The translations under genes and the position numbers were made by a program. DNA of 64,000 nucleotides, taken from Agrocybe praecox (Eukaryota > Basidiomycota > Agaricomycetes > Agaricales > Agrocybaceae). The stretch is taken from the NCBI GenBank assembly GCA_964017145.1, contig OZ024847.1:2294001-2358000 (forward strand), given 5' to 3'. This document shows, piece after piece, positions 19,005 to 61,166 of the stretch (positions within the stretch are counted from its first letter, which is position 1; the number at the start of each line of letters is the position of its first letter). The notes beneath the pieces are model-generated. The model worked only from the letters and a program-made list of their open reading frames with translations. It was not told the DNA's origin and ran no database searches.

Positions 19005-19593
19005 ACCCTTATGATATTTCCCTGCTATCTCACGTCAACATCGCTCAAACGTCGCTCATTATCTTGCATTTTTCATCCTCATTTTTTTGTAGTTTTTCCT
19101 CGTATTACTTCTCTTCACATTAACTACGAACTACACCTACATATCATGTACCGCTCATCGTGAATTAATTTTCTTGCCCTTGAACCCTAACTTGAGCCAA
19201 AAGTTGCAAAATCACCAAGTCGTTTCAAACTCCGCTTTCTTCACAGATACTTCGTCACTCACTTGCGCATTCACTTTAGCTGTTCATGTTACATGGTAGA
19301 GTTCACAGTAAGCCGTCTTTTTGTGGGCCATTTTATCTATGAGCTGACTAAAACTTCAGATATGCAATCCAACGTATCAAGGAAGGGGTACCAGGGATGA
19401 AATCTGGGATTTGATGTTTCTCACCGCCGCATTGAACACTACGCATTCTTCCTTTCCTCACCTGACAACTCCAATGTGTTCCTCGACATACCAACTTTGG
19501 ACGTACCAACAACCAAATTTGAGCCCCAAATCTCGTCAATCGTTGATGCATGCGTCCTCGAGGACCTCCGGCACTTCAGCAGATTCCTGGGAC
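19005..19593. other. Left flank of Ty3 element 1
   Basis: A short plus-strand frame (19476-19593, containing LEDLRHFSRFLG) runs into the LTR and may be the remains of a gene cut by the insertion. The last five bases, 19589-19593 (GGGAC), form one half of a target-site duplication whose partner lies beside Ty3 element 2, not beside element 1. Confidence 0.4.
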
Positions 19594-20070
19594 TGTCAGG
19601 GTTTCCCCTATTTTCCTCTATTTTTCTTTATTTATTTCGCATTTTTCCCTTTTGTAGATGTGTAGATATCTTATCTGTTTCATATCTTTGATTATCTCTT
19701 GATTATCATTTGATTAGATACTTATCACTTTGATTTCCCATGAGCACAGCCTCATTCATTCTACATCATTCCACATTATTCTTTTACTGTCTTTATGATG
19801 TCATTGCCTTACTCATCATTCCTTTCTATGATGTCATAGAGGAATATTCTAGAATAGCTGTAGGGTATATATACTGGACATGTAGGTAGCTTTAGCCCCA
19901 GCTTCAATCTCTTAGGATATCCACTATCATTGGTGTGATCTCTTAGAATCATTGAATGTCTCTCTATCTCTTTATCTCTCTGTCTCTCTGTCTCTGTCTC
20001 TTTTCTCTCTCTCCTCTTGCTTTGTCTTTGTTGGTGGCCTTGTCACACTGATTATAGTGTTGCCCTGACA
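19594..20070 (+). repeat. 5' LTR of element 1 (477-bp type A)
   Basis: Contains a TATA-like run (GGTATATATACTGG) at about 19864-19875 and the predicted transcript start near 19900. Type A markers are GATGTGTAGATA, GAGCACAGCC, ATTCCACATT, ACTGTCTTT, CATAGAGG and GATTATAGTG. It ends in a long C/T-rich tract before CCCTGACA. Confidence 0.93.
19867..19910 (+). promoter_or_regulatory. LTR promoter TATA and predicted transcript 5' end
   Basis: A TATATATA run lies about 33 bp upstream of AGCTTCAATCT (19900-19910). These 11 bases are exactly complementary to the presumed primer-binding site at 20073-20083, so transcription probably begins at or very near 19900. Confidence 0.55.
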
Positions 20071-20083
20071 GAAGATTGAAGCT
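20071..20083 (+). other. Primer-binding site, probably self-primed
   Basis: The site directly after the 5' LTR reads GAAGATTGAAGCT, with no TGG complementary to a tRNA CCA end. Its bases 20073-20083 are the exact reverse complement of LTR bases 19900-19910. In the Tf1 lineage the mRNA 5' end folds back to prime reverse transcription in this way. Element 2 has the same pair. Confidence 0.6.
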
Positions 20084-20578
20084 ATCTTAGACAACTCCAC
20101 CACTCACTATTCATCACCTCACACTTATCTACGCCAATCTATTCATCTCTCTTCCCACCATTTGCCCCCACATCCTCTCATCACATATATCATCCTCTTC
20201 ATCATCACCAACCCTTCAACCTTCACTACCCTCACAGTCTTCTACATCATTTCTCTCTCCCCAATTTCAACATCTCCTCAAGACACCTCTCTTTCTACTG
20301 GATCTCTCACTCTCTGCTGTGTGTTGTGTGTGAACTTGTAAATAGGGATACCAACTGTTGGGGCAGATTCAGGCCAACTGTTTCTGTCTTTGGTGGTCTA
20401 GGAAAATACCAGGTAGTCAACCCTGTGATCCTAGGTTTAGACCCACTGTGTTTGGGGTGACAACTGGGTATCCATTACATAGCCTTTTTTTAATTACTTA
20501 GTATAGTCTCAAGGGCACTTTTTGTAGATAGCTTCTCCCACACACACACCAGAGAGCCTCTACTTTATCTGCACCAAT

Positions 20579-23500
20579 ATGGACACTACCACTACCACTA
20601 TCACTACCACTACTCTTCCCTGTGTGGAGGAGCTCCTTCAACAAATCTCTCTCCTTACCCAGGAGGTGGCTCTCTTAAGGCAGCAGCAGCAACAGTCAGT
20701 CACACCTCCAACTACTCAATCACCATTCTCCTCTGCTGCTAGAGAAGTCCATCCTTCCTCTGCCAATCATAGTCCCTTTACCTTTGGTTCACAGTCTGGA
20801 ATCAAGGTTTCCCCCCCTGAGCCATATGATGGCTCTATGTCAAAAGCAGAAACCTTCCTCAGCCAACTCAAGTTATATTTCTATGGGAAGGGGATTACAG
20901 ATAACCTTCAAAAGGTTGTTTGTGCCCTGTCCTATATGAAAGAAGGCACTGCTGGGAAATGGGCACTTGACAAAACTAAAATTCTGGATGGAGATTATTC
21001 CAAAGAAGGCCTTTGGAATGACTTTGTCTATGAATTCAGGGAGGTATTTGGAGATCCAGACCCTGCTAGCACAGCCAGACACAAAATGAATCTTCTGAAG
21101 CAGGGAAGTCAAACTGCTGATGAATATGTGGCTAGCTTTAGGGAATTGGTCTCTGATACTGGGTACAATGATGCTGCTTTGGTTGAGAAGTTTCAGACTG
21201 GGCTAAACAGATCACTCAGGGAAAAGGTTTACAATGTCCCTGATATGCCCAAGACTCTGAATGGCTGGATCTCATGGGCTACCAAGCTGGACAGGCAGTG
21301 GAGACAGATGGAAGCCTTTAACAAGTCTACCTCCACTACTTCTTCTTCTTTCTCAAAGGCTCCTAAACCTCAGCCTAAGCCAGCAGCCCCTAGTCCTTCT
21401 TCTTTTTCAAGCAGTCAGAGAGGTTTTGTTGCTCAGGCAAAGCAACCAGATGTTGTTCCCATAAAAGTTGACTCTGAATGGAGGTCAGTCAGGCCACTTA
21501 TCTGCTTTAAGTGCAGAAAGCAAGGACATAAGGCTGCTGACTGTAGATCCTCAGTCAACATCAATGCTATGAACTATGAGGAGTTGAAAGACTTCTATGG
21601 GAAACTCATCAAGGAAGAAGAAGAGAGACAATCACAAGAACAGAAGAAGAATTTAGAGGCACCATTGGTGAAGGACATGTCCCAATGGAATAGATTTAAT
21701 GTATTAGAAGATGAAACTGATAAAGTCAATCCCACCTCTTCTGAATCTGATACAGAAATCATGTTCTCAAATTCTGATTCTTCTCTTTCTTCTACTCCTG
21801 AGAGGATATACATCTTAGGGCATAAGCCAAAGGCCTCCACCCATTTGTCAGTCATTCTCAAGACAATGGACACAGGAAAAAGGCTGCCTGTAGATGCTTT
21901 GCTTGACTCTGGAGCTACTGGTCTTTTTCTGGACACTGGGTTTGTAAAATACCATAATCTCAACACAAGAAAACTTCCTAGAGCTATTCCAGTCTACAAT
22001 GTTGATGGTACTCTCAACAAAAGTGGCTCTATTCATGAGGAAGTGGACTTGATTATGGTGTACAAGAACCACACAGAAAAGGCTACCTTTGCTGTTTGTG
22101 ACTTGGGAGACAAGACTGCTATCATTGGACATACCTGGCTCTATCTACACAATCCTGATGTCAACTGGAAGTCAGGTGATGTCCAGTTTACTAGATGTCC
22201 ATCTGACTGCCATATGGAAGTGATTAGAGCCAGGAGGAAGAGACAGAGGATAGCTGCAGTACAGAGAAGACAGCTCCCTCAGTTTGATGATGAAGGTGTA
22301 GATCTTGTAGATCAGTCACCTGACTCTGACTCTGAGATTGAGCCTGAGGATAGGATTTTTATTTCTTATCTCCATCCTCAGAAACAGTCTATCAATGCTA
22401 CCTCAACTGTGTCTCAGAAATTGGCAGAAGAGTCTTACCAACAGGCTGAATCCCCAAAGAAAACCTTTGAAGAAGCTGTTCCCAAACACTATCATCAATT
22501 TAAAGGAGTTTTTTCAAAAGAATCCTTTGATAGGCTACCTGACAGAAAGCCTTGGGATCATGCTATTGAGCTAAAGCCTGGGTCTGAGCCTTACAGATCA
22601 AAGATTTATCCTCTTTCCCCAAATGAGCAAAAAGAGCTTGATGCTTTTTTAGAGGAGAATCTGAAGTCTGGTAGGATTAGACCATCCAAGTCACCTATGG
22701 CATCCCCTGTGTTCTTTGTTAAGAAGAAGGATGGCTCTCTTAGACTAGTTCAGGACTATAGAAAGCTAAATGAAATGACCATTAAGAACTCTTATCCCTT
22801 ACCTCTCATTTCTGACATCATTACCAAACTCAGCAAAGCCAAGTATTTCACCAAGCTGGATGTCAGATGGGGCTTTAACAATGTTAGAGTTAAGGAAGGG
22901 GATGAGTGGAAGGCAGCTTTCAGAACCAATAGAGGGCTGTTTGAACCACTGGTCATGTTCTTTGGCTTAACCAACAGTCCTGCAACGTTCCAAACTATGA
23001 TGAATGACATCTTCATAGAGCTTATTGATGGCAATGTGGTCATTGTTTATATGGATGACATATTGGTCTTCACTGAGACTCTGGAACATCATAGGGAGGT
23101 AGTCAAGAAGGTTTTGCAAATCCTGGAAGATAACAAACTCTACCTGAAAGCAGAAAAATGTGAATTTGAAAAGGAAAAGATTGAATATCTTGGACTTATC
23201 ATTTCACAAGGCAAGATTGAAATGGATCCTGTCAAGGTAGAGGGTGTTTCCAAATGGCCTGAACCTGAAAATGTCAAGGATGTTCAATCATTCTTGGGAT
23301 TTGTCAACTTCTACAGAAGGTTCATAGAGGATTTTGCAGACATTGCCAAGCCACTTCATGAATTGACAAAGAAAGGGACAGTCTGGAGATGGGGACTTAG
23401 ACATCAGGAAGCCTTTGATCAGTTAAAGCTTAAGGTCACATCCTCCCCTGTTTTGGTTTTCCCTGATGATAATAAGCCCTATAAAGTTGAAGCAGATAGC

Positions 23501-25546
23501 TCAGATTATGCTACTGGGGCTGTCTTATCTCAGGAAGGATCAGATGGGAAATGGCATCCTGTTGCTTTTATGTCTAAGAGCCTCTCTGAAGTAGAAAGAA
23601 ATTATGAGATCCATGACAAGGAAATGCTGGCAATTATCAGGGCACTAGATGAATGGAGACATTATCTTGAAGGGACTCAACATACCTTTGAGATTTGGAC
23701 AGACCACAAAAATCTAGAGTACTTTATGACTGCCCAGAAACTAAGCAGAAGGCAGGCCAGATGGTCTCTGTTTTTGTCCAGATTTGACTTTTCTCTTCAT
23801 CATAGACCTGGTAAAAAATCCCTTAAGCCAGATGCTCTGTCAAGGAGATCAGATCATAAGAAGGGGGAGAATGATAATGAAAATGTAGTTCTCCTCAAAC
23901 CTTCCTACTTCAAGATCCAGGCTCTCAAACAGGGGCACACCATTTTGTCTGGTCCTGAGACTGATCTTCTAAAGAAAATCAGAGAGGCAAAGGACATGGA
24001 TGAAAAGGTTGTGAAGGCAGTACAGGAATTGAAGGGATCCTCAACCAAGAAGATAGAAGGACAGGAATGGGCAGAAGAGCAAGGACTTATTCTCTACAGA
24101 GGGAAAGTGTATGTTCCCAAGGACAAAGATCTTAGAAGGAAAATTGTGGAACTACATCATGATGCCTATATTGCTGGACATCCAGGAAAATGGAAGACAA
24201 TAGAGCTTGTCTCTAGAAATTATTGGTGGCCAGGAATGTCTCACTATATTGCAGCCTACACTAGAAGCTGTGATAGATGTAACAGGACAAAGACATTCCC
24301 AGCTAAGCCTGTTGGCTTCCTGACTCCTACTGAAATTCCTTCTGATGTCTGGCAAACCATTACTGTGGACTTTATCACTGGATTACCTGAGTGTCAAGGG
24401 TACAATGCCATCATGATAGTTGTAGATAGGCTTAGCAAGATGATCCACATCATACCTACCACAGATGAGGTCACATCTGAAGGTACTGCTAAGCTCTATA
24501 GAGACTATGTCTGGAAACTGCATGGTCTACCTATCAAAATAATCTGTGATAGAGGTCCCCAGTTTGTCTCCAAGTTCATGAAAGAGCTCAACTCCTTATT
24601 AGGTATTCAGACTGCTTCATCTACAGCCTATCACCCTCAGACAGATGGTCAAACTGAGAGGGTAAATCAAGAAGTAGAACAATACCTCAGGCTCTTTATA
24701 AACCACAGACAAGATGATTGGGTAGAATGGTTGTCCTTGGCTGAATTCTCCTATAATAACAGAGTTCAAGCATCTACTAGGCAAACACCCTTCATGCTCA
24801 ATAATGGTAGACATCCCAGGATGGGCACAGAACCTCTTAGAGACAGCAAGATGGACACTGTAGATACCTTTGTGAAAAACATGGAAGAGGCCAGAAAAGA
24901 AGCAGAGTCTGCCCTCAAAAAGGCTGCTGATGATATGGCCAAGTTCTATGATAGACACAGAGGTGTACCTACTGAGTATAAGGTCGGAGACATGGTTTGG
25001 CTAGATGGCAAGGACTTGAAGACTGATAGGCCTTCCAAGGAATTGGAGGACAAAAGATATGGACCATACAAGATCACCAAAGTTGTTGGTCCAAATGCCT
25101 ATGAATTGAAATTGCCTTCTACCATGAAGATCCATCCTGTATTCAATGTGGTCAAGCTCATGCCCCATCATCCTGATCCAGTTGGTAGAAAGCCCCCTTC
25201 CAGACCTCCACCAGTTATCAAAGGAGAAAACCCTGAATGGGAAGTTGAGTACATCAAGGACAGCAGATTATTCAGAAATAAGCTGCAGTACTTGGTTAAA
25301 TGGAAAAACTACCCAAATGAAGAAAGTACTTGGGAACCTGCAGAAAATTTGAAGAAGGCAGCTAAATCAATCAAGGAATTCCATGCAAAACACCCAGCTG
25401 CTCCCAGAAAAATATCTGCTCTCACTTTTGATAGACTTTCATTTTCTCCTTTAATCAATTTTACTGAACCTCCACCTCCTCTGAAACCCTCCAAGCTCAG
25501 CCATACATGTGCACATTGTGGGAAATGTGCCTTAGAGAGGGGGTGA
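20579..25546 (+). CDS. Gag-Pol polyprotein of Ty3 element 1 (1655 aa)
   Basis: A single uninterrupted frame. Gag covers about residues 1-330 and ends with a CCHC zinc knuckle starting at C309 (CFKCRKQGHKAADC). The aspartic protease active site is D443-S-G. Reverse transcriptase has YMDD at 824-827. RNase H begins near residue 970 (EADSSDYATGAV). The integrase has an HHCC zinc-binding region and catalytic D1264, D1324 and E1360 (D-D35-E), then the GPY/F module (KRYGPYKITKVVGPNAY). A chromodomain at about 1553-1610 (LQYLVKWKNYPNEESTWEP) probably directs integration to chromatin. Gag and Pol share one frame with no shift or stop, as in Tf1-type elements. The final codons, GAG AGG GGG TGA, also serve as the polypurine tract, and the LTR starts at the next base. 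The frame appears intact. Confidence 0.93.
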   Translation: MDTTTTTITTTTLPCVEELLQQISLLTQEVALLRQQQQQSVTPPTTQSPFSSAAREVHPSSANHSPFTFGSQSGIKVSPPEPYDGSMSKAETFLSQLKLYFYGKGITDNLQKVVCALSYMKEGTAGKWALDKTKILDGDYSKEGLWNDFVYEFREVFGDPDPASTARHKMNLLKQGSQTADEYVASFRELVSDTGYNDAALVEKFQTGLNRSLREKVYNVPDMPKTLNGWISWATKLDRQWRQMEAFNKSTSTTSSSFSKAPKPQPKPAAPSPSSFSSSQRGFVAQAKQPDVVPIKVDSEWRSVRPLICFKCRKQGHKAADCRSSVNINAMNYEELKDFYGKLIKEEEERQSQEQKKNLEAPLVKDMSQWNRFNVLEDETDKVNPTSSESDTEIMFSNSDSSLSSTPERIYILGHKPKASTHLSVILKTMDTGKRLPVDALLDSGATGLFLDTGFVKYHNLNTRKLPRAIPVYNVDGTLNKSGSIHEEVDLIMVYKNHTEKATFAVCDLGDKTAIIGHTWLYLHNPDVNWKSGDVQFTRCPSDCHMEVIRARRKRQRIAAVQRRQLPQFDDEGVDLVDQSPDSDSEIEPEDRIFISYLHPQKQSINATSTVSQKLAEESYQQAESPKKTFEEAVPKHYHQFKGVFSKESFDRLPDRKPWDHAIELKPGSEPYRSKIYPLSPNEQKELDAFLEENLKSGRIRPSKSPMASPVFFVKKKDGSLRLVQDYRKLNEMTIKNSYPLPLISDIITKLSKAKYFTKLDVRWGFNNVRVKEGDEWKAAFRTNRGLFEPLVMFFGLTNSPATFQTMMNDIFIELIDGNVVIVYMDDILVFTETLEHHREVVKKVLQILEDNKLYLKAEKCEFEKEKIEYLGLIISQGKIEMDPVKVEGVSKWPEPENVKDVQSFLGFVNFYRRFIEDFADIAKPLHELTKKGTVWRWGLRHQEAFDQLKLKVTSSPVLVFPDDNKPYKVEADSSDYATGAVLSQEGSDGKWHPVAFMSKSLSEVERNYEIHDKEMLAIIRALDEWRHYLEGTQHTFEIWTDHKNLEYFMTAQKLSRRQARWSLFLSRFDFSLHHRPGKKSLKPDALSRRSDHKKGENDNENVVLLKPSYFKIQALKQGHTILSGPETDLLKKIREAKDMDEKVVKAVQELKGSSTKKIEGQEWAEEQGLILYRGKVYVPKDKDLRRKIVELHHDAYIAGHPGKWKTIELVSRNYWWPGMSHYIAAYTRSCDRCNRTKTFPAKPVGFLTPTEIPSDVWQTITVDFITGLPECQGYNAIMIVVDRLSKMIHIIPTTDEVTSEGTAKLYRDYVWKLHGLPIKIICDRGPQFVSKFMKELNSLLGIQTASSTAYHPQTDGQTERVNQEVEQYLRLFINHRQDDWVEWLSLAEFSYNNRVQASTRQTPFMLNNGRHPRMGTEPLRDSKMDTVDTFVKNMEEARKEAESALKKAADDMAKFYDRHRGVPTEYKVGDMVWLDGKDLKTDRPSKELEDKRYGPYKITKVVGPNAYELKLPSTMKIHPVFNVVKLMPHHPDPVGRKPPSRPPPVIKGENPEWEVEYIKDSRLFRNKLQYLVKWKNYPNEESTWEPAENLKKAAKSIKEFHAKHPAAPRKISALTFDRLSFSPLINFTEPPPPLKPSKLSHTCAHCGKCALERG
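25534..25546 (+). other. Polypurine tract overlapping the gag-pol stop
   Basis: The run AGAGAGGGGGTGA ends exactly where the 3' LTR begins. Such a tract primes plus-strand DNA synthesis in LTR retrotransposons. Confidence 0.7.
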
Positions 25547-26013
25547 TGTCAGGGTTTCCCCTATTTTCCTCTATTTTTCTTTATTTATTTCGCATTTTTC
25601 CCTTTTGTAGATGTATAGATATCTTATCTGTTTCATATCTTTGATTATCTCTTGATTATCATTTGATTAGATACTTATCACTTTGATTTCCCATGAGCAT
25701 AGCCTCATTCATTCTACATCATTCTACATTATTCTTTTACTTTCTTTATGATGTCATTGCCTTACTCATCATTCCTTTCTATGATGTCATGGAGGAATAT
25801 TCTAGAATAGCTGTAGGGTATATATACTGGACATGTAGGTAGCTTTAGCCCCAGCTTCAATCTCTTAGGATATCCACTATCATTGGTGTGATCTCTTAGA
25901 ACCATTGAGTGTCTCTTTCTCTCTTCATCTCTCTTTCTCTCTCTCTCTCTCTCTACCTCTTGCTTTGTCTTTGTTGGTGGCCTTGTCACACTGATCTTAG
26001 TGTTGCCCTGACA
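25547..26013 (+). repeat. 3' LTR of element 1 (467-bp type B)
   Basis: Type B markers are GATGTATAGATA, GAGCATAGCC, ATTCTACATT, ACTTTCTTT, CATGGAGG and GATCTTAGTG. It is about 10 bp shorter than the 5' LTR in the C/T-rich tract. All these markers match the LTR at 43106-43572, not the LTR at the other end of the same element. Confidence 0.93.
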
Positions 26014-27289
26014 GCGAGTCCATGTCTTTTCTTATACGTGTCGATTATCTCTGCTGGTTTTGTATCATCTCTAAAACGCCGTATTTGATCTTGGATTCCG
26101 GGTACTCAATCAGGTGAGCTCTTCTCGTCTCCATATTTAACAACTTCATAAAGATGTCTTCTACTTACACCCAATCCCCATCATCTCAGAGAGGCCTCCC
26201 CATCTCAGCCCCCTCCATCGGGCACTTCAAAGTTCCGACAATGCTGCCATCCTGCAATTGTGAAGCTCGACGATGGATGGCTCATTGTATACCGTGTTTT
26301 CTCAACCAGTACGTGCCTTTTGTCTGATATACTATTGTGCTTCCATGCTCACATTTACCTCTTTCTAGACTCGCCTCCTCACTTCGATGAACGGGATAGC
26401 GTTGATTGATGCGGTGTGTATGGCTCCCTTAAAGCTAGGCCACGAGTAGTTGGCCTGGATATCTTGTAAGAAACGTGTTATTCCGTCTTTCCGTCTTTGA
26501 ACTTTGCTCTAAATTTCTGCACTCACACCTGCACTTTTCTTCTTCCTTTCAAAGCAAATGTCTTGCTCGGATGATGCCAGGATCGTCGCTTATTCAAGGA
26601 TCAACAGAGCTCGGTATGCGTTGCTCTCTGATTCTTCTGTTCCTCCGAGTGCAACAAGGGCGTCTCGAGATTTATCGTAAGCCATAATTTGGGTACGAAA
26701 CTTCAAAACTCCATGTCGCCAATCTTTGCGGCTGCTCGCGTACAGGCGTTTGTAGATCGTCCACTCTTGCTTTTGTCGGCTCGCAGGACAGACAATGCCT
26801 TGGTCGTCGCACGCACCAGACGAATGCTGTCAAAAAGCAGAACTCTTCACAGCTTTAGCTCAGCATCGGCCAGATCAACCAGCTCCCACTGCACTCGCTG
26901 CTCTGGCGTAAAGGACGAAGGTAGCAGAACACACCACGTCTCGAGTTCATCGACCGAACCAGACTCAGTGGCGGGAATGTCACCGTCTGAAATACTGCCG
27001 AGAATTCACGCTCAAGCTGCTTTTACTTGGCCAGAGTACGTACTAGTTTTTGTCGCAGTTTCACACGTTCTGTGGGACTCATCGTGGGGTCGCTTTTTAT
27101 GGTCAATACAAGCTCAAATCTATACGTGCCATGGGTGAGTCTGGTCAATATTCATATCAGGAAACATAAATCACTGGAAGCGCGCCTTCTTTTCGTCGAC
27201 TGCCAAAAAAACACCCGAATGGGGCTTACTGGTAGCCTTAAACTGCTTGATCAAGTCCTCGTAGATCTTCGCCTGGGAAGGCACTAAGT
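26014..27289. other. Unrecognised, possibly decayed coding stretch
   Basis: Short plus-strand coding-like pieces with intron-like borders occur (for example from an ATG at about 26155, and a 149-codon frame at 26689-27138 rich in Ser and Arg). I could not join them into one model or name a family. Bases 26014-26018 (GCGAG) are one half of the type B target duplication. Confidence 0.3.
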
Positions 27290-27700
27290 TTACTAATACG
27301 TCAGCGTGTTGTATATGACTTGAAATTCAGATAGACATACGTAGTCGGTAAACACATTCAATCCGATTGTCATCGTTTAGGATGCGTAATTTACGATCTC
27401 TTTTCTGCCACTCAGCGAGTTTGCGGTGGAAAAGCACTGATGGTACGAGGTGATTGGCACGCTTTCGCTTGAACTGCTCCTTTGCCTACATTAGCGCAGC
27501 GTAAAGAGATTGGGCTACCGCATATGAGGTTGTTAATTGCAATAATGAAATTAAGTTTGGAGCGAGCATACCCATATTCACTACTTTCTTCAAGTTCCAA
27601 TCCCCGAAGTTATCAATGATACTATCTTGCCGATGGCCAGAAGTCATTTGTCGACTTGTTTGGTTATGGGCCAAGCCAGCCTTGTCTGCTATATTCATAC
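27290..27700 (-). pseudogene. KDZ transposase fragment
   Basis: On the minus strand the block GHRQDSIIDNFGDWNLKKVV matches the KDZ signature that follows the catalytic Glu (compare GSRRDTLDDHFGDWNWKK in KDZ 1). An intron-like break near 27515-27575 is followed by a basic stretch containing HRKLAEWQKRDRKLR, which fits the next part of such transposases. The N-terminal two thirds, with both catalytic Asp residues, are missing: the palindromic element begins immediately upstream at about 27695, and I see no KDZ sequence beyond its far side. Confidence 0.5.
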
Positions 27701-28633
27701 ATGAACCCTTGGAAACTACCCAACAAGGGTGATACATCCACACCGGAAGTTTCCCAGTCCCGGCAGTGATATATCACTATGCTGCAGGCAGAGAGCAGCT
27801 GCCTTTGGTAAACATATATAAACATTGCTGTATTTTAAGGTTTTGGACAGTAATTATATGTTGCAGGCGTAGTGGTTATGTTTTTTGTTGCGATATGTCA
27901 GATATATATTCTAAATATATTTTATGTTTTTTTGGCACTCTTTGCGCACCTAAAAAGGGACGGGACGGGATGGATTAAAAAACATACAACCAGATGACGT
28001 GTTATTTATAGGTGCACGCAGGAAACAGTGTCCCCGAGGTGCCCGACGCTGTAATTGGGCTCCTGCGCTGCGTCGGGCATCGTTCGGGGCGCAGAAAAAG
28101 CCCAGATATAATGTAGGGATATGTTTTGATTTTTTGGGGCCCTTTGCGCCATCAAAAAAGGGCGGGAGGGGATGGATTGCAAAACATAAAACCGGATGAC
28201 GTGTTATTTTTAACGTGCTTTGATCATTTTGGGCGTTGCGCTATTTTTATTGATGATATCATCATTTTGCACTATATTTATTTTAGATATCATGTGTTTT
28301 AGGCCTAGATTAGATTAGATATATATAAAAAAAGCGAACTTTCTACTTTTATTTTGAGCGGCAGTTCCCTATTCAGCAATTATTACTATTTTCGGACATT
28401 CCTTATAAAACATACAATTTTTTAAAATAAAATAAAAACATATATTTGTCTAGTTACAAAATATCTATATACTGGGACCGAGCGAGGGGACGCAAGAGCC
28501 AGGAGAAGCACGCAAAAAACGAGAGACGATGTCTCTCGTCTTTGCGTGCTGGTCGTCCTGCTCGTGCTCGTGCTCGCCTGGTCGTCGTCGTGCTCATACT
28601 CGGGTCGTCGCAGCCGTCGTCGTGCTCAGCCCA

Positions 28634-28827
28634 GCCATTGTGCACGCCCTACCCAACGTGCACGCTCTACCCGTCGTGCACGCCCTACCCAACGTGCACG
28701 CTCTACCCGTCATGCACGCCCTACCCAACGTGCACGCCCTACCCGTCATGCACGCTGTACCTAACGTGCACGCCCTACCCGTCGTGCACGCTCTACCCAA
28801 CGTGCACACCCTACCCAACGTGCACGC
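28634..28827. repeat. 18-bp minisatellite, left arm
   Basis: Tandem 18-bp units alternate between TGCACGCCCTACCCAACG and TGCACGCTCTACCCGTCG variants, about ten copies before the sequence gap. The mirror array at about 29905-30036 starts in register but has a different unit order after the third unit, so the arrays evolved or were assembled separately. Confidence 0.85.
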
Positions 28828-29027: not shown

Positions 29028-29039
29028 CCCAATTCCAAA

Positions 29040-33925: not shown

Positions 33926-34265
33926 TTTCGAGCCGCTCTTGTTTAGAGAGCGAGCGGTGGGGTTGAAGATGCCCGAGGAAGGTTTTTGATGGGGAGCTGG
34001 CGAAGCTCCGGGGTTTGGAGTCAGCTACGAGTGAGGTGAATGTTACAAGGAATCATTTGGGTTGGTTGACTCAGGTTCGTCTCTCATTCTTTCGTTTTTA
34101 TTTCTACGAGCATCTTACCATCATCTTCGGAACATCATAGATACCCTGGGGCCGCCATACACCAGAGAACTACTCCCTCCCACCCAAGCTGTGCTCGACA
34201 AGGATCGCTATGACCTAACGGGCGTGAAATCACGTATCCTCGAGTTCCTTGCTGTCGGCAAGCTA
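33926..34265 (+). pseudogene. Fragment of a Lon protease gene
   Basis: Translated pieces match the conserved region just before the Lon ATPase domain: [12 protein letters not shown], then (after a frameshift near 33990) [20 protein letters not shown] and NHLGWLTQ, then after an intron (34076-34139) IPWGRHTPENYSL, then (after another frameshift near 34185) LDKDRYDLTGVKSRILEFLA and VGKLR. Mitochondrial Lon degrades misfolded matrix proteins. The Walker A motif that should follow at once is absent, and the frame is broken at least twice, so this is a piece of a host gene and not a functional protease. Confidence 0.72.
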
Positions 34266-35619
34266 CGCGCAACACAAACCCAACAACGAGAAGAAGAACC
34301 CAACGAAACTTAGTGAAAACCCGTTCAATTATAACAGGATAACCACTTCCGTCCCAAAACAATTAGAGGCGGATGCAGCAGCATCCCGCACGGCCAACAC
34401 CATCTTCAGTTCCGTCTGCCTGCTCATCGAGAACCCTCTCCTGATGGAGCTCATATTCGTCATATTCTTGCTCTCTCCCCTCCTCAGCTGGGAGTGGAAA
34501 GAGGAAGGGAAGGGGGTCGGTCGCTCAGCATAATCAACATCAGCAGCAGCAGCAGGCACCGCCTTCGCCGCTGGCCCCACCGTCTCTATCTATCAATACG
34601 ACAACCTCGATGAGCCCTCAAGTTGGTATGGGTATCCTAGGCGCTAATGGGATGATGGGCGCTAGTAGCACAGCTACGCATGCCAGCAATCAGCAGCAGC
34701 AACAGCAATTTGTAGAGGTGGATAATAACGAGAAACCACGGATGGAGACGTATGTCCAGATATCGAAGGATGTTATACCGAGCGATGAGACGAGGATGAA
34801 GTTGAGGAGACAAGCGCAGAACTGGAGGGGCATTACCGCTCTTCCTTCGGATCCAAGCACATCAACATCATCAACATTGTCGTCTAACCCTACGAACGCC
34901 CAACAGCAACAGCAACACCCAATAATAATCAAACAAATCCCACCACGCGCAGCGTACAACCCCCTCCTTGCACACCACATCGCCTATCGCACAACACAAC
35001 CTCATCACGCCCTTCGTGTCCTCCATCACCCTGTCCGCCAAATACATCCTTGATCCGCTCAATGTGTACGTGCACCTGGGGATGCCGAACCCATATGTCC
35101 ATCTGCCAATGTCAACTTCAACTTCGAACTCATATTTCAACCCTAACCCGCATCATCAGGAAATGGCACAAACCTATCCATACCCAACTCCAACAACACC
35201 ATTTGCTCCTTCCTCCACCGACCCGCTCTTCCGAACCACCACGACGCACAACCATCATCCGCTATTCATGAATATGGACTCTCCAACGCCTACTCCCCCA
35301 TGCGCCCGAAACGCACCGAAACAAAACCGACAAATACAAATACAAACAGTCCCCCGCGAACTCCAACAGCTCCGCTACCAGATAAACAACATCCTGCACA
35401 CGCTCTCGTCCACATTCACAGCGTGTGCGTGTGGTGCGCGCACGAGGAACTGCGCGTTGACGCAGATGGCTGCATTTGTTGATAGGCTGGAAGGTGTAGC
35501 TACGACGACGGATATGCCTACGCATGTGATGGATATGGACGAGGAGAGGACGCCGCCGAAGATCAAGATGCGGAAGCTGTGGATGTATGGGCATGGGCCA
35601 GCCTTAGACGCTACATTCA
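34266..35619 (+). pseudogene. Low-complexity gene debris next to repeat copy B
   Basis: Plus-strand frames at 34610-35053 and 34968-35645 encode Gln-, Thr- and Pro-rich protein plus two more ordered stretches (QISKDVIPSDETRMKLRRQA; RELQQLRYQINNILHTLSST). No start-to-stop model spans them. I do not recognise the family. It may continue the captured host sequence that begins with the Lon fragment or be a second fragment. Confidence 0.35.
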
Positions 35620-36170
35620 TGTATCAAACCCTGGCAGTTGCCTAACGGCCTGATACATCCATATGGGCAGTTGCCTGACTTCCTATTTTGGATACACTAT
35701 CATGGCTGGGCTTCCTGGGCTTGTTGCTGCCGAAAATGGCCGAAACGGCACTTATATATAATTGAGTGGGTGTATGTTGGATGTATGGCTGAAATAATAC
35801 AATATTTAAGCGTGCTAGGTGTTCTGGTTGGGTGGGGTAGGCGCCTGTCTATTCTCGGGGAAAAGAGTAGGTAAACATAGACAAACAGTTTATTGCATAA
35901 TTGACCACTTTGCACTCGAAATTATTATTTTTGGCTCTATTAATGCTCCTTTCAGGGCGCTTCTTGGTGGAATGGACATGTAATATATATTAGGAATATT
36001 CTGCCTCTTTTGCTCTCACAAAAGAGGTCAGCAAACGATGGATTGACGCTCATGATTTTGGATGACATTTAAAAATAGTTGCGTATCCGGGTACACCGGC
36101 CATGGATGTAAAATCCGATTAGAATCTAATCTAATCTTCTCGCACTCTTTTATATAATCAATGACGCAGC
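35590..36170 (+). repeat. TGATACAT-family dispersed repeat, copy B
   Basis: The head module TGTATCA (35620) and TGATACATCCATATGGGC (35651) with TTGCCTGACTTCCTATTTTG matches copy A closely, and similarity reaches upstream of it (CCAGCCTTAGACGCTACATTC compared with the left end of the palindrome). The tail module (GATGGATTG near 36037, GGATGACAT near 36061) is followed by a GATTAGAATCTAATCTAATC block similar to the palindrome arms. Confidence 0.6.
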
Positions 36171-36299
36171 CACTCAGAAAGGCCTGCGAAACATATTTGC
36201 CTCAAAACATGTGAATAAATATTTTTATTTTTACTGACAGCTCAAGGGAGAAAGACAACATAAAGATTACTGAAAGGTGAGGTGATGACGACAATGGAG

Positions 36300-36935
36300 A
36301 CAAATTTTATTTCACGATGCTAGTGAGAGAGCGAAAGAAATGTAAACGCGCGAGTAAAGGAAGTTGATTTGAGCGCAGAAACGACTACGACGTGGAAGAT
36401 GTAACGAGAATAACGAGGGCAAGAGGGGTGGAAATGATGGAAAATAGTGTATTGAGAGCGAGCAAGAAATGTAAACGCGTGAGTAAAGGAAGTTGATTTG
36501 AGCGCAGAAATGACTACGACGTGAAAGATGTAACAACGAGAATGACGAGGGCAATAGGGGTGGAAATGATGGAAAATAGTCTATCGAGTTGAATGCAAGT
36601 GTTAGCCTAGAAAGTGGAGGATCTAATAACAACGATGGTGCCGTCAAAGATGGTCGAATTAACAAAGTTGGATGTGATGATGTAGTATCAAGCCCCGGCC
36701 ACAGAAAGTGGAGGATATAGCAGCAACGATGACAGGGGAAAGAGGGTGGAAATGATGTACTGAAATGGCTGTAAGCGTTGGCCCAGGAAATGGAGGACGC
36801 AACAACGATGATGACGGGGGCAAGAGGGGTGGAAGCGGTGGGAAATAGTGTATTGAAATGGATGTGAGTGTCGGCCCCGAAAATGGAGGATGTAGCGATA
36901 GCGATGGCGGCGAAGATGGTTGAAATAGTAGGGTT
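36300..36935. repeat. Degenerate ~120-130-bp minisatellite
   Basis: Two clear units are offset by 129 bp (TGTAAACGCG at 36341 and 36470). Diverged units containing GGCAAGAGGGGTGGAAATGA and AAATGGAGGATG continue to about 36930. The array opens a 305-codon minus frame (36312-37229) that I regard as spurious because it consists of repeated Ser/Leu/Phe-rich blocks. Confidence 0.7.
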
Positions 36936-37175
36936 GGACTTGATTATGTAGTATCTGGAGTAAAAGAGGTGGATGAAGATGGTTGGCCGTAGTTCATATG
37001 AATGGAAATTGGGATCGATCGTTACCAAAAAACAAGGAATGGAGATTAGAAGGATTTGACCGAGGCTATGGCAAAGGCGAGCGCGCAATTGAGGGAAAAG
37101 GGTGAAAAAATCATAAAATTGAAATTGGATAAACCACAAGGCGCATGAAAGAAGAGCGAGTCGACACCAGGTCCC
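36936..37175. other. Left flank of Ty3 element 2
   Basis: No gene. The last five bases (37171-37175, GTCCC) are the reverse complement of the GGGAC that precedes element 1, as expected if they once bordered the same insertion. Confidence 0.6.
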
Positions 37176-37652
37176 TGTCAGGGCAACACTATAATCAGTG
37201 TGACAAGGCCACCAACAAAGACAAAGCAAGAGGAGAGAGAGAAAAGAGACAGAGACAGAGAGACAGAGAGATAAAGAGATAGAGAGACATTCAATGATTC
37301 TAAGAGATCACACCAATGATAGTGGATATCCTAAGAGATTGAAGCTGGGGCTACAGCTACCTACATGTCCAGTATATATACCCTACAGCTATTCTAGAAT
37401 ATTCCTCTATGACATCATAGAAAGGAATGATGAGTAAGGCAATGACATCATAAAGACAGTAAAAGAATAATGTGGAATGATGTAGAATGAATGAGGCTGT
37501 GCTCATGGGAAATCAAAGTGATAAGTATCTAATCAAATGATAATCAAGAGATAATCAAAGATATGAAACAGATAAGATATCTACACATCTACAAAAGGGA
37601 AAAATGCGAAATAAATAAAGAAAAATAGAGGAAAATAGGGGAAACCCTGACA
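37176..37652 (-). repeat. 3' LTR of element 2 (477-bp type A)
   Basis: Same length and diagnostic bases as the 5' LTR of element 1 at 19594-20070; the only difference I found is AGCTGTAGCC instead of AGCTTTAGCC. Confidence 0.93.
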
Positions 37653-40600
37653 TCACCCCCTCTCTAAGGCACATTTCCCACAATGTGCACATGTATGACT
37701 GAGTTTGGAGGGTTTCAGAGGAGGTGGAGGTTCAGTAAAATTAATTAGAGGAGAAAATGAAAGTCTATCAAAAGTGAGGGCTGAAATTTTTCTGGGAGCA
37801 GCTGGGTGTTTTGCATGGAATTCCTTGATTGATTTAGCTGCCTTCATCAAATTTTCTGCAGGTTCCCAAGTACTTTCTTCATTTGGGTAGTTTTTCCATT
37901 TAACCAAGTACTGCAGCTTATTTCTGAATAATCTGCTGTCCTTGATGTACTCAACTTCCCATTCAGGGTTTTCTCCTTTGATAACTGGTGGAGGTCTGGA
38001 AGGGGGCTTTCTACCAACTGGATCAGGATGATGGGGCATGAGCTTGACCACATTGAATACAGGATGGATCTTCATGGTAGAAGGCAATTTCAATTCATAG
38101 GCATTTGGACCAACAACTTTGGTGATCTTGTATGGTCCATATCTTTTGTCCTCCAATTCCTTGGAAGGCCTATCAGTCTTCAAGTCCTTGCCATCTAGCC
38201 AAACCATGTCTCCGACCTTATACTCAGTAGGTACACCTCTGTGTCTATCATAGAACTTGGCCATATCATCAGCAGCCTTTTTGAGGGCAGACTCTGCTTC
38301 TTTTCTGGCCTCTTCCATGTTTTTCACAAAGGTATCTACAGTGTCCATCTTGCTGTCTCTAAGAGGTTCTGTGCCCATCCTGGGATGTCTACCATTATTG
38401 AGCATGAAGGGTGTTTGCCTAGTAGATGCTTGAACTCTGTTATTATAGGAGAATTCAGCCAAGGACAACCATTCTACCCAATCATCTTGTCTGTGGTTTA
38501 TAAAGAGCCTGAGGTATTGTTCTACTTCTTGATTTACCCTCTCAGTTTGACCATCTGTCTGTGGGTGATAGGCTGTAGATGAAGCAGTCTGAATACCTAG
38601 TAAGGAGTTGAGCTCTTTCATAAACTTGGAGACAAACTGGGGACCTCTATCACAGATGATTTTGATAGGTAGACCATGCAATTTCCAAACATAGTCCCTG
38701 TAGAGCTTAACAGTACCTTCAGATGTGACCTCATCTGTGGTAGGTATGATGTGGATCATCTTGCTAAGCCTATCTACAACTATCATGACAGCATTGTACC
38801 CTTGACACTCAGGTAATCCAGTGATAAAGTCTACAGTAATGGTTTGCCAGACATCAGAAGGAATTTCAGTAGGAGTCAGGAAGCCAACAGGCTTAGCTGG
38901 GAATGTCTTTGTCCTGTTACATCTATCACAGCTTCTAGTGTAGGCTGCAATATAGTGAGACATTCCTGGCCACCAATAATTTCTAGAGACAAGCTCTATT
39001 GTCTTCCATTTTCCTGGATGTCCAGCAATATAGGCATCATGATGTAGTTCCACAATTTTCCTTCTAAGATCTTTGTCCTTGGGAACATACACTTTCCCTC
39101 TGTAGAGAATAAGTCCTTGCTCTTCTGCCCATTCCTGTCCTTCTATCTTCTTGGTTGAGGATCCCTTCAATTCCTGTACTGCCTTCACAACCTTTTCATC
39201 CATGTCCTTTGCCTCTCTGATTTTCTTTAGAAGATCAGTCTCAGGACCAGACAAAATGGTGTGCCCCTGTTTGAGAGCCTGGATCTTGAAGTAGGAAGGT
39301 TTGAGGAGAACTACATTTTCATTATCATTCTCCCCCTTCTTATGATCTGATCTCCTTGACAGAGCATCTGGCTTAAGGGATTTTTTACCAGGTCTATGAT
39401 GAAGAGAAAAGTCAAATCTGGACAAAAACAGAGACCATCTGGCTTGCCTTCTGCTTAGCTTCTGGGCAGTCATAAAGTACTCTAGATTTTTGTGGTCTGT
39501 CCAAATCTCAAAGGTATGTTGAGTCCCTTCAAGATAATGTCTCCATTCATCTAGTGCCCTGATAATTGCCAGCATTTCCTTGTCATGGATCTCATAGTTC
39601 CTTTCTACTTCAGAGAGGCTCTTAGACATAAAAGCAACAGGATGCCATTTCCCATCTGATCCTTCCTGAGATAAGACAGCCCCAGTAGCATAATCTGAGC
39701 TATCTGCTTCAACTTTATATGGCTTATTATCATCAGGGAAAATCAAAACAGGAGAGGATGTGACCTTAAGTTTCAACTGGTCAAAAGCTTCCTGGTGTCT
39801 AAGTCCCCATCTCCAAACTGTTCCCTTCTTTGTCAATTCATGAAGTGGCTTGGCAATGTCTGCAAAATCCTCAATGAACCTTCTATAGAAGTTAACAAAT
39901 CCCAAGAATGATTGAACATCCTTGACATTTTCAGGTTCAGGCCATTTGGAAACACCCTCTACCTTGACAGGATCCATTTCAATCTTGCCTTGTGAAATGA
40001 TAAGTCCAAGATATTCAATCTTTTCCTTTTCAAATTCACATTTTTCTGCTTTCAGGTAGAGTTTATTCTGTTCAAGGATTTGCAAGACCTTCTTGACTAC
40101 CTCCCTATGATGTTCCAGAGTCTCAGTGAAGACCAATATGTCATCCATATAGACAATGACCACATTGTTATCAATGAGCTCTATAAAGATGTCATTCATC
40201 ATGGTCTGGAAAGTAGCAGGACTATTGGTTAAGCCAAAGAACATGACCAATGGTTCAAACAGCCCTCTATTAGTTCTGAAAGCTGCCTTCCATTCATCTC
40301 CTTCCTTAATTCTGACATTGTTGAACCCCCATCTGACATCCAGCTTGGTAAAATACTTGGCCTTGCTGAGTTTAGTGATTATGTCAGAGATGAGAGGCAA
40401 AGGGTAGGAGTTTTTGATGGTCATTTCATTGAGCTTTCTGTAGTCCTGAACTAGTCTAAGAGAGCCATCCTTCTTCTTGACAAAAAATACAGGGGATGCC
40501 ATAGATGACTTGGAAGGTCTAATTCTGCCAGATTTCAGATTTTCCTCTAGAAAGGCATCAAGCTCCTTCTGCTCTTTAGGTGAAAGAGGATAAATCTTGG

Positions 40601-42599
40601 ATCTATATGGCTCTGAACTAGGCTTCAGCTCAATAGCATGATCCCAAGGCTTTCTATCTGGTAGCCTATCAAAAGATTCCTTTGAGAATACCCCTTTGAA
40701 TTGGTGATAATGCTTGGGGACAGCTTCTTCAAAAGTTTTCTTTGGGGAATCAGCTAGTTGATGAGATTCTTCTGCCAATTTTTGAGACACAGAGGAGGTG
40801 GCATTTATGTACTGGTTCTGAGGATGTAGACAAGAGATAAAAATTCTATCCTCAGGCTCAATTTCAGAATCAGGTGACTGATCTACAAGATCTACACCTT
40901 CATCATCAAATTGAGGAAGCTGCCTTCTTTGTACTGCAGCTATTCTCTGCCTCTTCCTCCTGGCTCTAACAACTTCCATATGACAATCAGGTGGACATCT
41001 GAGGAATTGAACATCCCCTTTCTGCCAGTCAACATTAGGATTGTGTAGATAAAGCCAGGTGTGTCCAATAATAGCAGTTTTATCTCCTAAGTCACATATA
41101 GCAAAGGTGGCCTTTTCTGTATGGTTTTTGTAGATCATAATCAAATCAACTTCTTCATGAATAGAGCCACTCTTGTTGAGGGTTCCATCTACATTGTAGA
41201 CAGGAATGGCTCTAGGAAGTTTTCTTGTGTTTAGATTATGATATTTCACAAAACCAGTATCCAGAAAAAGACCAGTGGCACCAGAGTCAAGCAAAGCATT
41301 CACAGAAAGCCTTTTTCCTGTATCCATTGTCTCTAGTATAACTGACAGATGGGTAGAGGTCTTAGGCTTGTGGTTCAGAATGTAGATTCTTTCAGGGGGA
41401 GAGGAAGAAGGTGAATCAGAGGGCATGATTTCTGTATCAGAATTTGAAGAGGAAGGATTGGTTTTATCACTTTCATCTTCTAATACATTAAATCTATTCC
41501 ATTGGGACATGTCCTTCACCAATGGAGCCTTTAAAAACCCTTCTGATTCATTCTTGGTTCCTTGTTCTTCCTTGATCAGTTTCCCATAAAAGTCTTTCAG
41601 CTCCTCATGGTTCATGGCATTGATGTTCACTGTAGATCTACAGTGCTCTGCCTTGTGACCAGGTTTTCTGCATTTAAAGCAGATAAAGGGCCTGACTGAC
41701 TTCCATCCTGAATCTACTTCCATAGGGACCACATCTGATAGCTTTGCCTGAGACACTTGACTCCTATGATTACCAGCAAAGGAAGATGAACTGGGGGCAG
41801 CAGGCTTGGACTGAGGCTTGTTTGAATAAGGAGCCTTGGAAAATGGAGAAGAGGAAGAAGAAGTAGATTTGTTGAATGCTTCCATCTGTCTCCATTGCCT
41901 GTCCAGCTTAGTAGCCCAGGAAATCCAGCCATTCAGAGTTTTGGGCATCTCAGGTACACTGTAGACCTTTTCCATGAGAGATCTGTTAAGCCCAGTCTGA
42001 AACTTCTCAACCAATGCAGCATCATTGTACCCAGTGTCAGCAGCCAATTCCCTGAAGCTAGCCACATACTCATCAGCAGTTTGGCTTCCCTGCTTGAGGA
42101 GATTCATTTTGTGTCTGGCTGTGCTAGCAGGGTCTGGGTCTGCAAAGACTTCCCTGAATTCATAGACAAAATCATCCCAAAGGCCATCCTTAGGACAATC
42201 TTCATCTAGAATTTTGGTCTTCTCAAGTGCCCACTTCCCAGCAATGCCTCCCTTCATGAAGGAAAGAGCACAAACAACTTTTTGAAAGTCATCTGTGATA
42301 TTCTTTCCCCAGAAGTATAACTTGAGTTGACTGAGGAAGGCTTCTGCTTTCTGCATGGAACCATCAAAGGTTTCAGGAGGAGAGATTTTAGCAGAAGAGG
42401 AAGTGACAGCATGAGATGAAGGAACAGAGTAAACCTCTCTAGCAGCAGAGAAGAAAGGTGATTGAGTGGTGGGTGGTGTGATAGACTGTTGCTGCTGCTG
42501 TTTCAAGAGATTTAACTCCTGGGTAAGGAGAGTAATCTGGTGTAAGAGTTGCTCCACAGTGGTAGGAGGAGTGGTGGTAGGTTGTGGTGTGGTGTCCAT
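37653..42599 (-). CDS. Gag-Pol polyprotein of Ty3 element 2 (1648 aa)
   Basis: A single uninterrupted frame with the same domain order as element 1: Gag with CCHC knuckle from C307 (CFKCRKPGHKAEHC), protease DSG near residue 436, reverse transcriptase YMDD at 817-820, RNase H, zinc-binding and D-D35-E integrase, GPY/F module and chromodomain. Compared with element 1 the Gag half differs at dozens of residues and by small indels. From the middle of the reverse transcriptase to the C-terminus I see only a handful of substitutions (for example PVLIFP for PVLVFP, GYNAVM for GYNAIM, NLMKAAK for NLKKAAK). This step in similarity places a conversion or crossover within pol. The frame is open, so the element could be competent unless individual residues are damaged. 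Confidence 0.93.
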   Translation of the reverse strand: MDTTPQPTTTPPTTVEQLLHQITLLTQELNLLKQQQQQSITPPTTQSPFFSAAREVYSVPSSHAVTSSSAKISPPETFDGSMQKAEAFLSQLKLYFWGKNITDDFQKVVCALSFMKGGIAGKWALEKTKILDEDCPKDGLWDDFVYEFREVFADPDPASTARHKMNLLKQGSQTADEYVASFRELAADTGYNDAALVEKFQTGLNRSLMEKVYSVPEMPKTLNGWISWATKLDRQWRQMEAFNKSTSSSSSPFSKAPYSNKPQSKPAAPSSSSFAGNHRSQVSQAKLSDVVPMEVDSGWKSVRPFICFKCRKPGHKAEHCRSTVNINAMNHEELKDFYGKLIKEEQGTKNESEGFLKAPLVKDMSQWNRFNVLEDESDKTNPSSSNSDTEIMPSDSPSSSPPERIYILNHKPKTSTHLSVILETMDTGKRLSVNALLDSGATGLFLDTGFVKYHNLNTRKLPRAIPVYNVDGTLNKSGSIHEEVDLIMIYKNHTEKATFAICDLGDKTAIIGHTWLYLHNPNVDWQKGDVQFLRCPPDCHMEVVRARRKRQRIAAVQRRQLPQFDDEGVDLVDQSPDSEIEPEDRIFISCLHPQNQYINATSSVSQKLAEESHQLADSPKKTFEEAVPKHYHQFKGVFSKESFDRLPDRKPWDHAIELKPSSEPYRSKIYPLSPKEQKELDAFLEENLKSGRIRPSKSSMASPVFFVKKKDGSLRLVQDYRKLNEMTIKNSYPLPLISDIITKLSKAKYFTKLDVRWGFNNVRIKEGDEWKAAFRTNRGLFEPLVMFFGLTNSPATFQTMMNDIFIELIDNNVVIVYMDDILVFTETLEHHREVVKKVLQILEQNKLYLKAEKCEFEKEKIEYLGLIISQGKIEMDPVKVEGVSKWPEPENVKDVQSFLGFVNFYRRFIEDFADIAKPLHELTKKGTVWRWGLRHQEAFDQLKLKVTSSPVLIFPDDNKPYKVEADSSDYATGAVLSQEGSDGKWHPVAFMSKSLSEVERNYEIHDKEMLAIIRALDEWRHYLEGTQHTFEIWTDHKNLEYFMTAQKLSRRQARWSLFLSRFDFSLHHRPGKKSLKPDALSRRSDHKKGENDNENVVLLKPSYFKIQALKQGHTILSGPETDLLKKIREAKDMDEKVVKAVQELKGSSTKKIEGQEWAEEQGLILYRGKVYVPKDKDLRRKIVELHHDAYIAGHPGKWKTIELVSRNYWWPGMSHYIAAYTRSCDRCNRTKTFPAKPVGFLTPTEIPSDVWQTITVDFITGLPECQGYNAVMIVVDRLSKMIHIIPTTDEVTSEGTVKLYRDYVWKLHGLPIKIICDRGPQFVSKFMKELNSLLGIQTASSTAYHPQTDGQTERVNQEVEQYLRLFINHRQDDWVEWLSLAEFSYNNRVQASTRQTPFMLNNGRHPRMGTEPLRDSKMDTVDTFVKNMEEARKEAESALKKAADDMAKFYDRHRGVPTEYKVGDMVWLDGKDLKTDRPSKELEDKRYGPYKITKVVGPNAYELKLPSTMKIHPVFNVVKLMPHHPDPVGRKPPSRPPPVIKGENPEWEVEYIKDSRLFRNKLQYLVKWKNYPNEESTWEPAENLMKAAKSIKEFHAKHPAAPRKISALTFDRLSFSPLINFTEPPPPLKPSKLSHTCAHCGKCALERG

Positions 42600-43105
42600 A
42601 GTAAAGGCTCTCTGATGTGTGTGTGGGAGAAGCTATCTACAAAAAGTGCCCTTGAGACTATACTAGGTAACTAAAAAAAACTATATACTGGATACCCAGT
42701 TGTCACCCCAGGCACAGTGGGTCTAAACCTAGGATCACAGGGCTGACTACCTGGTATTTTCCTAGACCACCAAAGACAGAAACAGTTGGCCTGGATCTGC
42801 CCCAACAGTTGGTATCCCTATCTACAAGTTCACACACAACACACAGCAGAGAGTGAGGAGTCCAGTAGAAAGAGAGGTGTCTTGAGGAGATGTTGAAATT
42901 GGGGAGGGAGAAATGATATAGAAGATTGGGGGAATATTGGAGGTTGAAGAGTTGATGATGATGATGAAAATGATATATGTGGTGAGAGGATGTGAGGGGA
43001 AATGGTGGAAAGAGGGATGAATGGATTGGTGTAGATAAATGTAGGTTGGTGTAGGTAAGGGTGAGATAGTGATTGGTGGAGTTGTCTGGGAGAGCTTCAA
43101 TCTTC

Positions 43106-43572
43106 TGTCAGGGCAACACTAAGATCAGTGTGACAAGGCCACCAACAAAGACAAAGCAAGAGGTAGAGAGAGAGAGAGAGAGAAAGAGAGATGAAGAGAG
43201 AAAGAGACACTCAATGGTTCTAAGAGATCACACCAATGATAGTGGATATCCTAAGAGATTGAAGCTGGGGCTAAAGCTACCTACATGTCCAGTATATATA
43301 CCCTACAGCTATTCTAGAATATTCCTCCATGACATCATAGAAAGGAATGATGAGTAAGGCAATGACATCATAAAGAAAGTAAAAGAATAATGTAGAATGA
43401 TGTAGAATGAATGAGGCTATGCTCATGGGAAATCAAAGTGATAAGTATCTAATCAAATGATAATCAAGAGATAATCAAAGATATGAAGCAGATAAGATAT
43501 CTATACATCTACAAAAGGGAAAAATGCGAAATAAATAAAGAAAAATAGAGAAAAATAGGGGAAACCCTGACA
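43106..43572 (-). repeat. 5' LTR of element 2 (467-bp type B)
   Basis: Carries all type B markers listed for the 3' LTR of element 1, including the short C/T tract and GATCTTAGTG. It contains AGCTTCAATCT complementary to the PBS that follows in the minus direction (GAAGATTGAAGCT, ending at 43105). Confidence 0.93.
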
Positions 43573-43650
43573 CTTGCCAGCAGCTATTATTTAAGAGAAC
43601 GATCGTTGATCCTCAAAAAACATCGAATCCTGACATCATCGAAGGGAGGC

Positions 43651-61070: not shown

Positions 61071-61166
61071 GCTGACACTGTCCGAGTCGTCGATGGATAT
61101 AGGTGGGTCACACACCCCTTCTGCCACGGTGGACGACGGGGGCGCAGCAGCGGATACATATGTATT

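Follow-up and report, generated by a model that had tools for sequence, protein, structure and literature searches.

Does the order of sequences around two opposed Ty3-type retrotransposons in Agrocybe praecox record a past inversion, and where would the elements have recombined? The window, i.e. the whole stretch of 64,000 nucleotides analysed here, corresponds to C8:2294001-2358000 of an assembly of 59.17 Mb in 347 contigs. It contains two elements with full gag-pol frames in opposite orientation, element 1 at 19594-26013 (+) and element 2 at 37176-43572 (-), and a preliminary description had proposed that the DNA between them was flipped by recombination between the two. We put at roughly 85% the probability that the segment, which in the assembly runs for the most part opposite to its counterpart in a paralogue, was turned by one reciprocal crossover between the opposed elements.

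LTRs and target duplications of the two elements

In both elements, the domains follow the order typical of Ty3/gypsy retrotransposons, from reverse transcriptase (RT) through RNase H to integrase and then a chromodomain, and the LTRs have TG...CA ends and are flanked by 5-bp target duplications (TSDs). In element 1, these domains occupy residues 714-875 (RT), 963-1069 (RNase H), 1182-1353 (integrase) and 1554-1603 (chromodomain). The LTR positions and lengths given below (477, 467, 477 and 467 bp) agree with the preliminary description.

19594..20070, + strand: element 1 5' LTR, type A, 477 bp, TGTCAGGG...CCCTGACA
20579..25546, + strand: element 1 gag-pol ORF, 1655 aa, with gag, RT, RNase H, integrase, SH3 and chromodomain
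25547..26013, + strand: element 1 3' LTR, type B, 467 bp
37176..37652, - strand: element 2 3' LTR, type A, 477 bp
37653..42599, - strand: element 2 gag-pol ORF, 1648 aa, with gag, RT, RNase H, integrase, SH3 and chromodomain
43106..43572, - strand: element 2 5' LTR, type B, 467 bp

The two LTRs of a freshly made copy are alike, as a result of reverse transcription. Here the similarity runs across the elements: the 5' LTR of element 1 and the 3' LTR of element 2 (type A) differ by 1 mismatch, and the 3' LTR of element 1 and the 5' LTR of element 2 (type B) by 2, in both cases without gaps, very much as had been described. The own LTRs of element 1 are 13 mismatches and 12 gap columns apart, and those of element 2 are 16 mismatches and 12 gap columns apart; the diagnostic sites are more numerous than the seven that had been reported. 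The tree of LTRs, a check that had been suggested beforehand, was built from 30 rows (25 different) and groups the LTRs across the elements and not within each of them: 19594-20070 joins 37176-37652 and 25547-26013 joins 43106-43572, both at 100/97, as two separate clades.

The target duplications pair across the elements like the LTRs, in accordance with the preliminary description. The elements as originally inserted are referred to below as X and Y.

19589..19593, + strand: original element X target duplication GGGAC, present as one copy at the uninserted site in C211
37171..37175, - strand: second copy of the X duplication, GTCCC on the + strand, displaced by the inversion
26014..26018, + strand: original element Y target duplication GCGAG, present as one copy at the uninserted site in C11
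43573..43577, - strand: second copy of the Y duplication, CTTGC on the + strand, one base changed

Across the elements, GGGAC/GTCCC match at 5/5 and GCGAG/CTTGC at 4/5 positions, whereas the 5-mers flanking one and the same element match at 3/5 and 2/5 only. The calculated joint chance of a 5/5 and an at least 4/5 match is ~1.5e-5 at equal base frequencies. This evidence is to be read with the mismatch in one of the pairs and with the unmatched flanks that likewise occur in one control element (C12, below).

Eleven other elements of the family were tried as controls, and 10 had an LTR pair, the element in C5 being dropped for want of a 5' LTR at the guessed place; the set is non-random and consists mainly of LTR pairs ~6-7 kb apart. 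Own LTRs differ by 0-2 mismatches in 9/10 controls (8 in C12) and by 0-6 gap columns in 9/10 (25 in C2). The target duplications match at 5/5 positions in 8/10, at 4/5 in C1 and at 2/5 in C12. In the LTR tree, own LTRs pair exclusively in 8/10 controls; those of C10 and C12 each form a three-row fork joined by one LTR from another element.

Sequence order in paralogues and the split KDZ transposon

The preliminary description had predicted two ancestral junctions, and both were found as paralogous empty sites, C11 and C211 being paralogues in the same genome and not this locus in a sister strain. The paralogue C11:1881504-1895154 lacks both elements, is 95.6-97.9% identical to the window and lies in a region (C11:1870500-1908900) with zero N. 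Its collinear pieces are as follows.

C11 1881504-1885327: window 47413-43572, reversed
C11 1885322-1886924: window 26014-27596
C11 1886924-1887348: window 31058-31482
C11 1887606-1888142: window 31480-32016
C11 1890528-1892758: window 33412-35598
C11 1892751-1895154: window 8249-5811, reversed

When C8 is compared with C11, window positions 26014-35598, less two inserts, are thus reversed relative to both flanks. The right-hand element site is represented in C11 by one GCGAG with the element absent, and position 43573 is joined there, uninserted, to 26014.

The first insert, at 27597-31057, has no counterpart in C11 and has many relatives elsewhere in the genome. It carries inverted arms of 1.08 kb that are 99% alike (27675-28754 and 29916-30995); tandem repeats of 18/36 bp and a gap of 200 N are present as well, but no clear target duplication. 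Because this gap (28828-29027) falls within the flipped segment, the scaffold does not run continuously through it. The second insert occupies 32017-33411, and C11 holds different extra DNA there, 2.4 kb at 1888143-1890527. A 146-bp tandem array at 5811-6285 borders the C11 homology.

The second junction was found in C211, which joins window position 19593 to 37175 with one GGGAC: C211:15366-17356 equals window 17613-19593 and C211:17352-18007 equals window 37175-36527, the two pieces overlapping by the 5 bp GGGAC. The sequences on both sides of this junction belong to a DNA transposon of the KDZ type.

8242..8249, - strand: KDZ target duplication, GCCCATGC on the + strand
8250..19593, + strand: main part of the KDZ DNA transposon up to the insertion of element 1, with the left terminal inverted repeat (TIR) from 8250
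16974..17666, + strand: KDZ transposase exon (PF18758, E 2.4e-32)
35591..35598, + strand: KDZ target duplication GCATGGGC, matching the reverse complement of positions 8242-8249 at 8/8
35599..37175, - strand: right end of the split KDZ transposon with TIR, moved by the inversion

The C211 copy is collinear with window 8250-19593 over C211:4583-17356 (87-94% identity, with some extra DNA) and matches the right end 35599-37175 over C211:17352-19078; its main pieces are just 85-94% identical to the window, and its own flanks form no matched target duplication. Since C211 runs straight from 19593 to 37175 with a single GGGAC, the left insertion site lies inside the KDZ transposon. The 8-bp sequence GCATGGGC is single in the C11 empty site (1892751-1892758) and has two copies in C8, one of them inverted. 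The two KDZ ends (8250 and 35599) become imperfect inverted repeats once the segment is unflipped, and because the 8-bp duplications now face each other inverted, the inversion cut the KDZ transposon in two. The separated ends, which are now directly oriented, would be expected not to work jointly as a normal transposon.

With Zisupton of the KDZ superfamily (PMC12730594), the transposon of the window shares a KDZ transposase, terminal inverted repeats and 8-bp duplications, as far as that source describes them, and it differs in having been broken up by the insertion of a Ty3 element and by an inversion. The two Kyakuja families of Laccaria described in the same source have 7-bp duplications and no inverted repeats, and because of its 8-bp duplications and inverted ends the transposon of the window appears closer to Zisupton than to these. 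KDZ sequences gave 176 matches in the genome. The protein search with a 505-residue frame inside the transposon returned none at E <=0.001 among the 7992 candidates scored. At 3411-4076, ~4 kb from the split transposon, an exon belonging to a different KDZ transposase (PF18758, E 4e-43) was observed, and a 387-residue frame with DUF6830 (E 6.5e-07) at 60203-61363; no Rfam match was found in the window at gathering scores.

26014..37175, no strand: inverted stretch of 11,162 bp enclosed by the two elements; C11:1881504-1895154 shows 26014-35598, less two inserts, to be reversed

The flip proposed for 26014-37175 is supported by the C11 and C211 junctions, whereas its extent has to be revised: the flipped stretch takes in the right end of the KDZ transposon as well as the inner part of each element, and ~12.4-14.0 kb was thereby turned, 11,162 bp of it between the elements. 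Unflipping alone restores three separate duplications, which points to the C11-type order as the ancestral one. The locus thus shows the features of ectopic recombination, i.e. opposed homologous copies, exchanged duplications, two chimeric elements and an uninverted single-target arrangement in paralogues, and the crossover between two inverted elements, as originally proposed, is well supported by the exchange of LTRs and target duplications together with the paralogous junctions.

The following order of events would account for these observations. A KDZ DNA transposon would have entered the locus first, creating an 8-bp duplication. Element X would then have inserted inside the KDZ transposon (GGGAC) and element Y, inverted, in the neighbouring DNA (GCGAG), in either order. 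Finally, X and Y would have paired and crossed over, by which the DNA between them would have been turned, two hybrid elements formed and the KDZ ends separated.

Probable position of the proposed crossover and tracts of identity

Elements 1 and 2 are 74-89% identical in gag (bins 20581 to 22570) and up to 100% in pol, and the binned identities thus reproduce the contrast from which an exchange in pol had been proposed. As a locator of the exchange, this step was rejected on logic: every column still compares X with Y, and since a reciprocal crossover keeps the element-to-element identity at every column, the gag-to-pol step cannot place it. The placement in pol itself stands, because relatives of the elements map the exchange to the 3' part of pol.

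The gags nearest to element 1 (98-99%) are those at C9:1206511, C6:486562 and C2:4531545, whose LTRs cluster with type A. Thirteen other full-length gag matches are 96-99% identical to element 2; the element-2-like gags include C12, C159, C11b, C1, C9b and C11a, all with LTRs of the clade that holds type B. An exception is C10, with LTRs on the type B side and a gag just 85% like that of element 2. In both elements of the window, gag and 5' LTR thus agree in type, and the 3' LTR is the swapped part.

The relative at C9:1205520-1211940, with LTRs in the type A clade, is element 1-like until shortly before pol ends and element 2-like from there on. It shares 422 element-1-only and 8 element-2-only sites in bins 20600 to 25300, against 3 and 20, respectively, from bin 25400 to the end. 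A fine alignment comprised 24 rows, the two elements together with 22 relatives. In it, 31/31 differing sites of the C9 relative are element-1-like up to 25353; past it, 30/34 columns are element-2-like, 3 element-1-like and 1 neither, 10 of the columns representing one indel. The states of element 2 at 24637 and 25353 occur in 0/22 relatives, and the informative bounds are therefore 24599 (5') and 25414 (3'). The element 2 side of the mapping is based on the 3' regions of the Y-like relatives L042, L043 and L061 and on the gag search tables. At 25414 and 25420 element 1 lacks the state of these three relatives, so that the mapping on the 3' side is mainly a matter of element 2 matching an X-like relative; at 25451 element 1 agrees with L042 and L043. 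On these comparisons, the crossover probably fell in the most 3' part of pol, within an interval of 0.8 kb.

24600..25413, + strand: mapped crossover interval in element 1, coding for the integrase C-terminal part, SH3 and chromodomain and holding the identical tract 24638-25352
37786..38599, - strand: crossover interval in element 2, derived from the element 1 coordinates over a gap-free stretch, holding the identical tract 37847-38561
23756..24366, + strand: identical tract of 611 bp in element 1, nearest to the X-like relative in both elements, likely a conversion tract
38833..39443, - strand: element 2 counterpart of the 611-bp tract
24638-25352 (+) in element 1 and 37847-38561 (-) in element 2: identical tract of 715 bp

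The distances between elements 1 and 2 in the two tracts (0/611 and 0/715) are the lowest of 276 pairs, with one other pair tying in each. Outside them, the elements differ at 18/456 positions before the tracts (rank 141 of 253), 12/271 between them (258 of 276) and 8/194 after them (127 of 276), and rank 120 of 276 in a further neighbouring region. The presence of two identical tracts bounded by ~4% divergence suggests that gene conversion accompanied the crossover.

In the 611-bp tract, both elements are nearest to the C9 relative (4/611), followed by L045 (8) and L041 (9), and are distant from L061 (13), L042 (19) and L043 (20); on this pattern, element 2 appears to have undergone conversion to the X type. 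The relatives L045 and L041, also close in this tract, have element-2-like gags. In the 715-bp tract, four alleles are found in both elements and in 0/22 relatives, while L048 and L057 share five of their own. The lowest distances here are 12/715 for L043, 14 for L041, 15 for L045 and 16 for L044 and L042, with 16 for the C9 relative too; the affinity leans weakly to L043, and a conversion of element 1 towards the Y type is therefore possible. As the 715-bp tract does not clearly resemble either parent subfamily and L045 and L041 are near in the 611-bp tract, the directions of conversion are indicated weakly. The identical tracts could also be older than the insertions, arising by template switching during reverse transcription, and could then have favoured the crossover through pairing. 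The fullest reading, in which the locus would preserve an exchange in 3' pol, two opposite conversions, a segment that may still be flipping and a disabled KDZ transposon, is tentative and rather doubtful.

Alternative explanations and comparison with known inversions

An assembly artefact, i.e. two ordinary elements with no inversion between which the assembler or scaffolder switched within the identical tracts, so that hybrid elements and a seeming flip arose, is improbable in our estimate. It is suggested by the exact tracts of 715 bp and 611 bp in both elements and by the 200-N gap in the flipped segment, and a consensus mixed from both copies could imitate conversion tracts. However, the assembly would have had to switch twice, at corresponding positions of the two elements; one switch does not explain the X-nearest 611-bp tract of element 2 between Y-like stretches; and in the same assembly 9/10 other elements have LTRs with 0-2 mismatches and 8 have perfect duplications. 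Another possible history is repeated flipping, in which more than one recombination took place, the present order is one state and the identical tracts are separate events. The two tracts, separated by 271 bp with 12 differences and only one of them X-like, would fit it, but the same pattern results from one crossover in which mismatches were repaired patchily, and when the genome was searched with the segment and with each of its two flanks, the locus was found once, in one orientation, beside its paralogues; we regard it as unlikely.

The family is mosaic, with relatives changing their affinity along pol, and the two elements might accordingly have been inserted independently, already mosaic by template switching during reverse transcription and with no rearrangement. 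Yet the LTRs of new copies are alike, as 9/10 controls illustrate, and such insertions can neither cross-pair the target duplications of two sites nor turn 26014-35598 relative to C11; contradicted by the C11 and C211 junctions as well, this explanation is very improbable. That the C8 order is ancestral and C11 the rearranged copy has a next to negligible chance: the direction is unreadable from C11 and C8 alone, as these are paralogues, but only the C11 order restores direct duplications (X 5/5, Y 4/5, KDZ 8/8) and inverted KDZ ends.

Inversion by a single crossover between opposed elements, the preferred reading, is a well-known kind of event; the present example is new, very clean and recorded unusually completely. 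For a Drosophila inversion generated by Galileo, opposed copies, exchanged duplications and chimeric copies served as criteria (PMC2775673), and the locus described here resembles that case, as presented there, in the opposed copies at the ends, swapped target duplications, chimeric copies and known uninverted sites. Galileo is a DNA transposon and the case a natural chromosomal inversion, while LTR retrotransposons are involved here, the inverted DNA amounts to 11 kb within nested transposons, and paralogues of the same genome supply the reference order. Inversions between human and chimpanzee were also attributed to retroelements (PMC2603318), although these were L1 and Alu, i.e. non-LTR elements of primates, unlike those of the window. 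In fission yeast, recombinant Tf1/Tf2 elements are mentioned, in the sections of the source at hand without inversions made by them (PMC10085805). Among the matches listed, going by titles and the openings of abstracts, no literature description of the present locus was seen.

One assembly, with no sister genome, shows that retrotransposons likely turned over a stretch of DNA, and the sequence of events can be read from three independent sets of target duplications together with paralogous empty sites. The exchange can be narrowed to 0.8 kb and is accompanied by probable conversion tracts, a detail that in our judgement is expected to be rare in natural inversions. The locus also points to a second way in which retrotransposons may break large DNA transposons, by pulling their ends apart, besides insertion.

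Two further candidates for inversion in the same family were rejected. The C12 control element (C12:1277630-1284025, LTRs L067 and L068), considered as a second inversion product for its unmatched flanks (2/5) and 8 LTR mismatches, has own LTRs that are still mutual best matches at 98%; each search scored 40 of 241 candidates, and among these no exchange partner reached the 98% level. In C9, identical single LTRs at 1285541 (L006) and 1299635 (L005) are opposed, 13.6 kb apart, and both have CAGAC flanks. Being single and equally flanked, they are more likely copies of one (inverted) duplicated segment.
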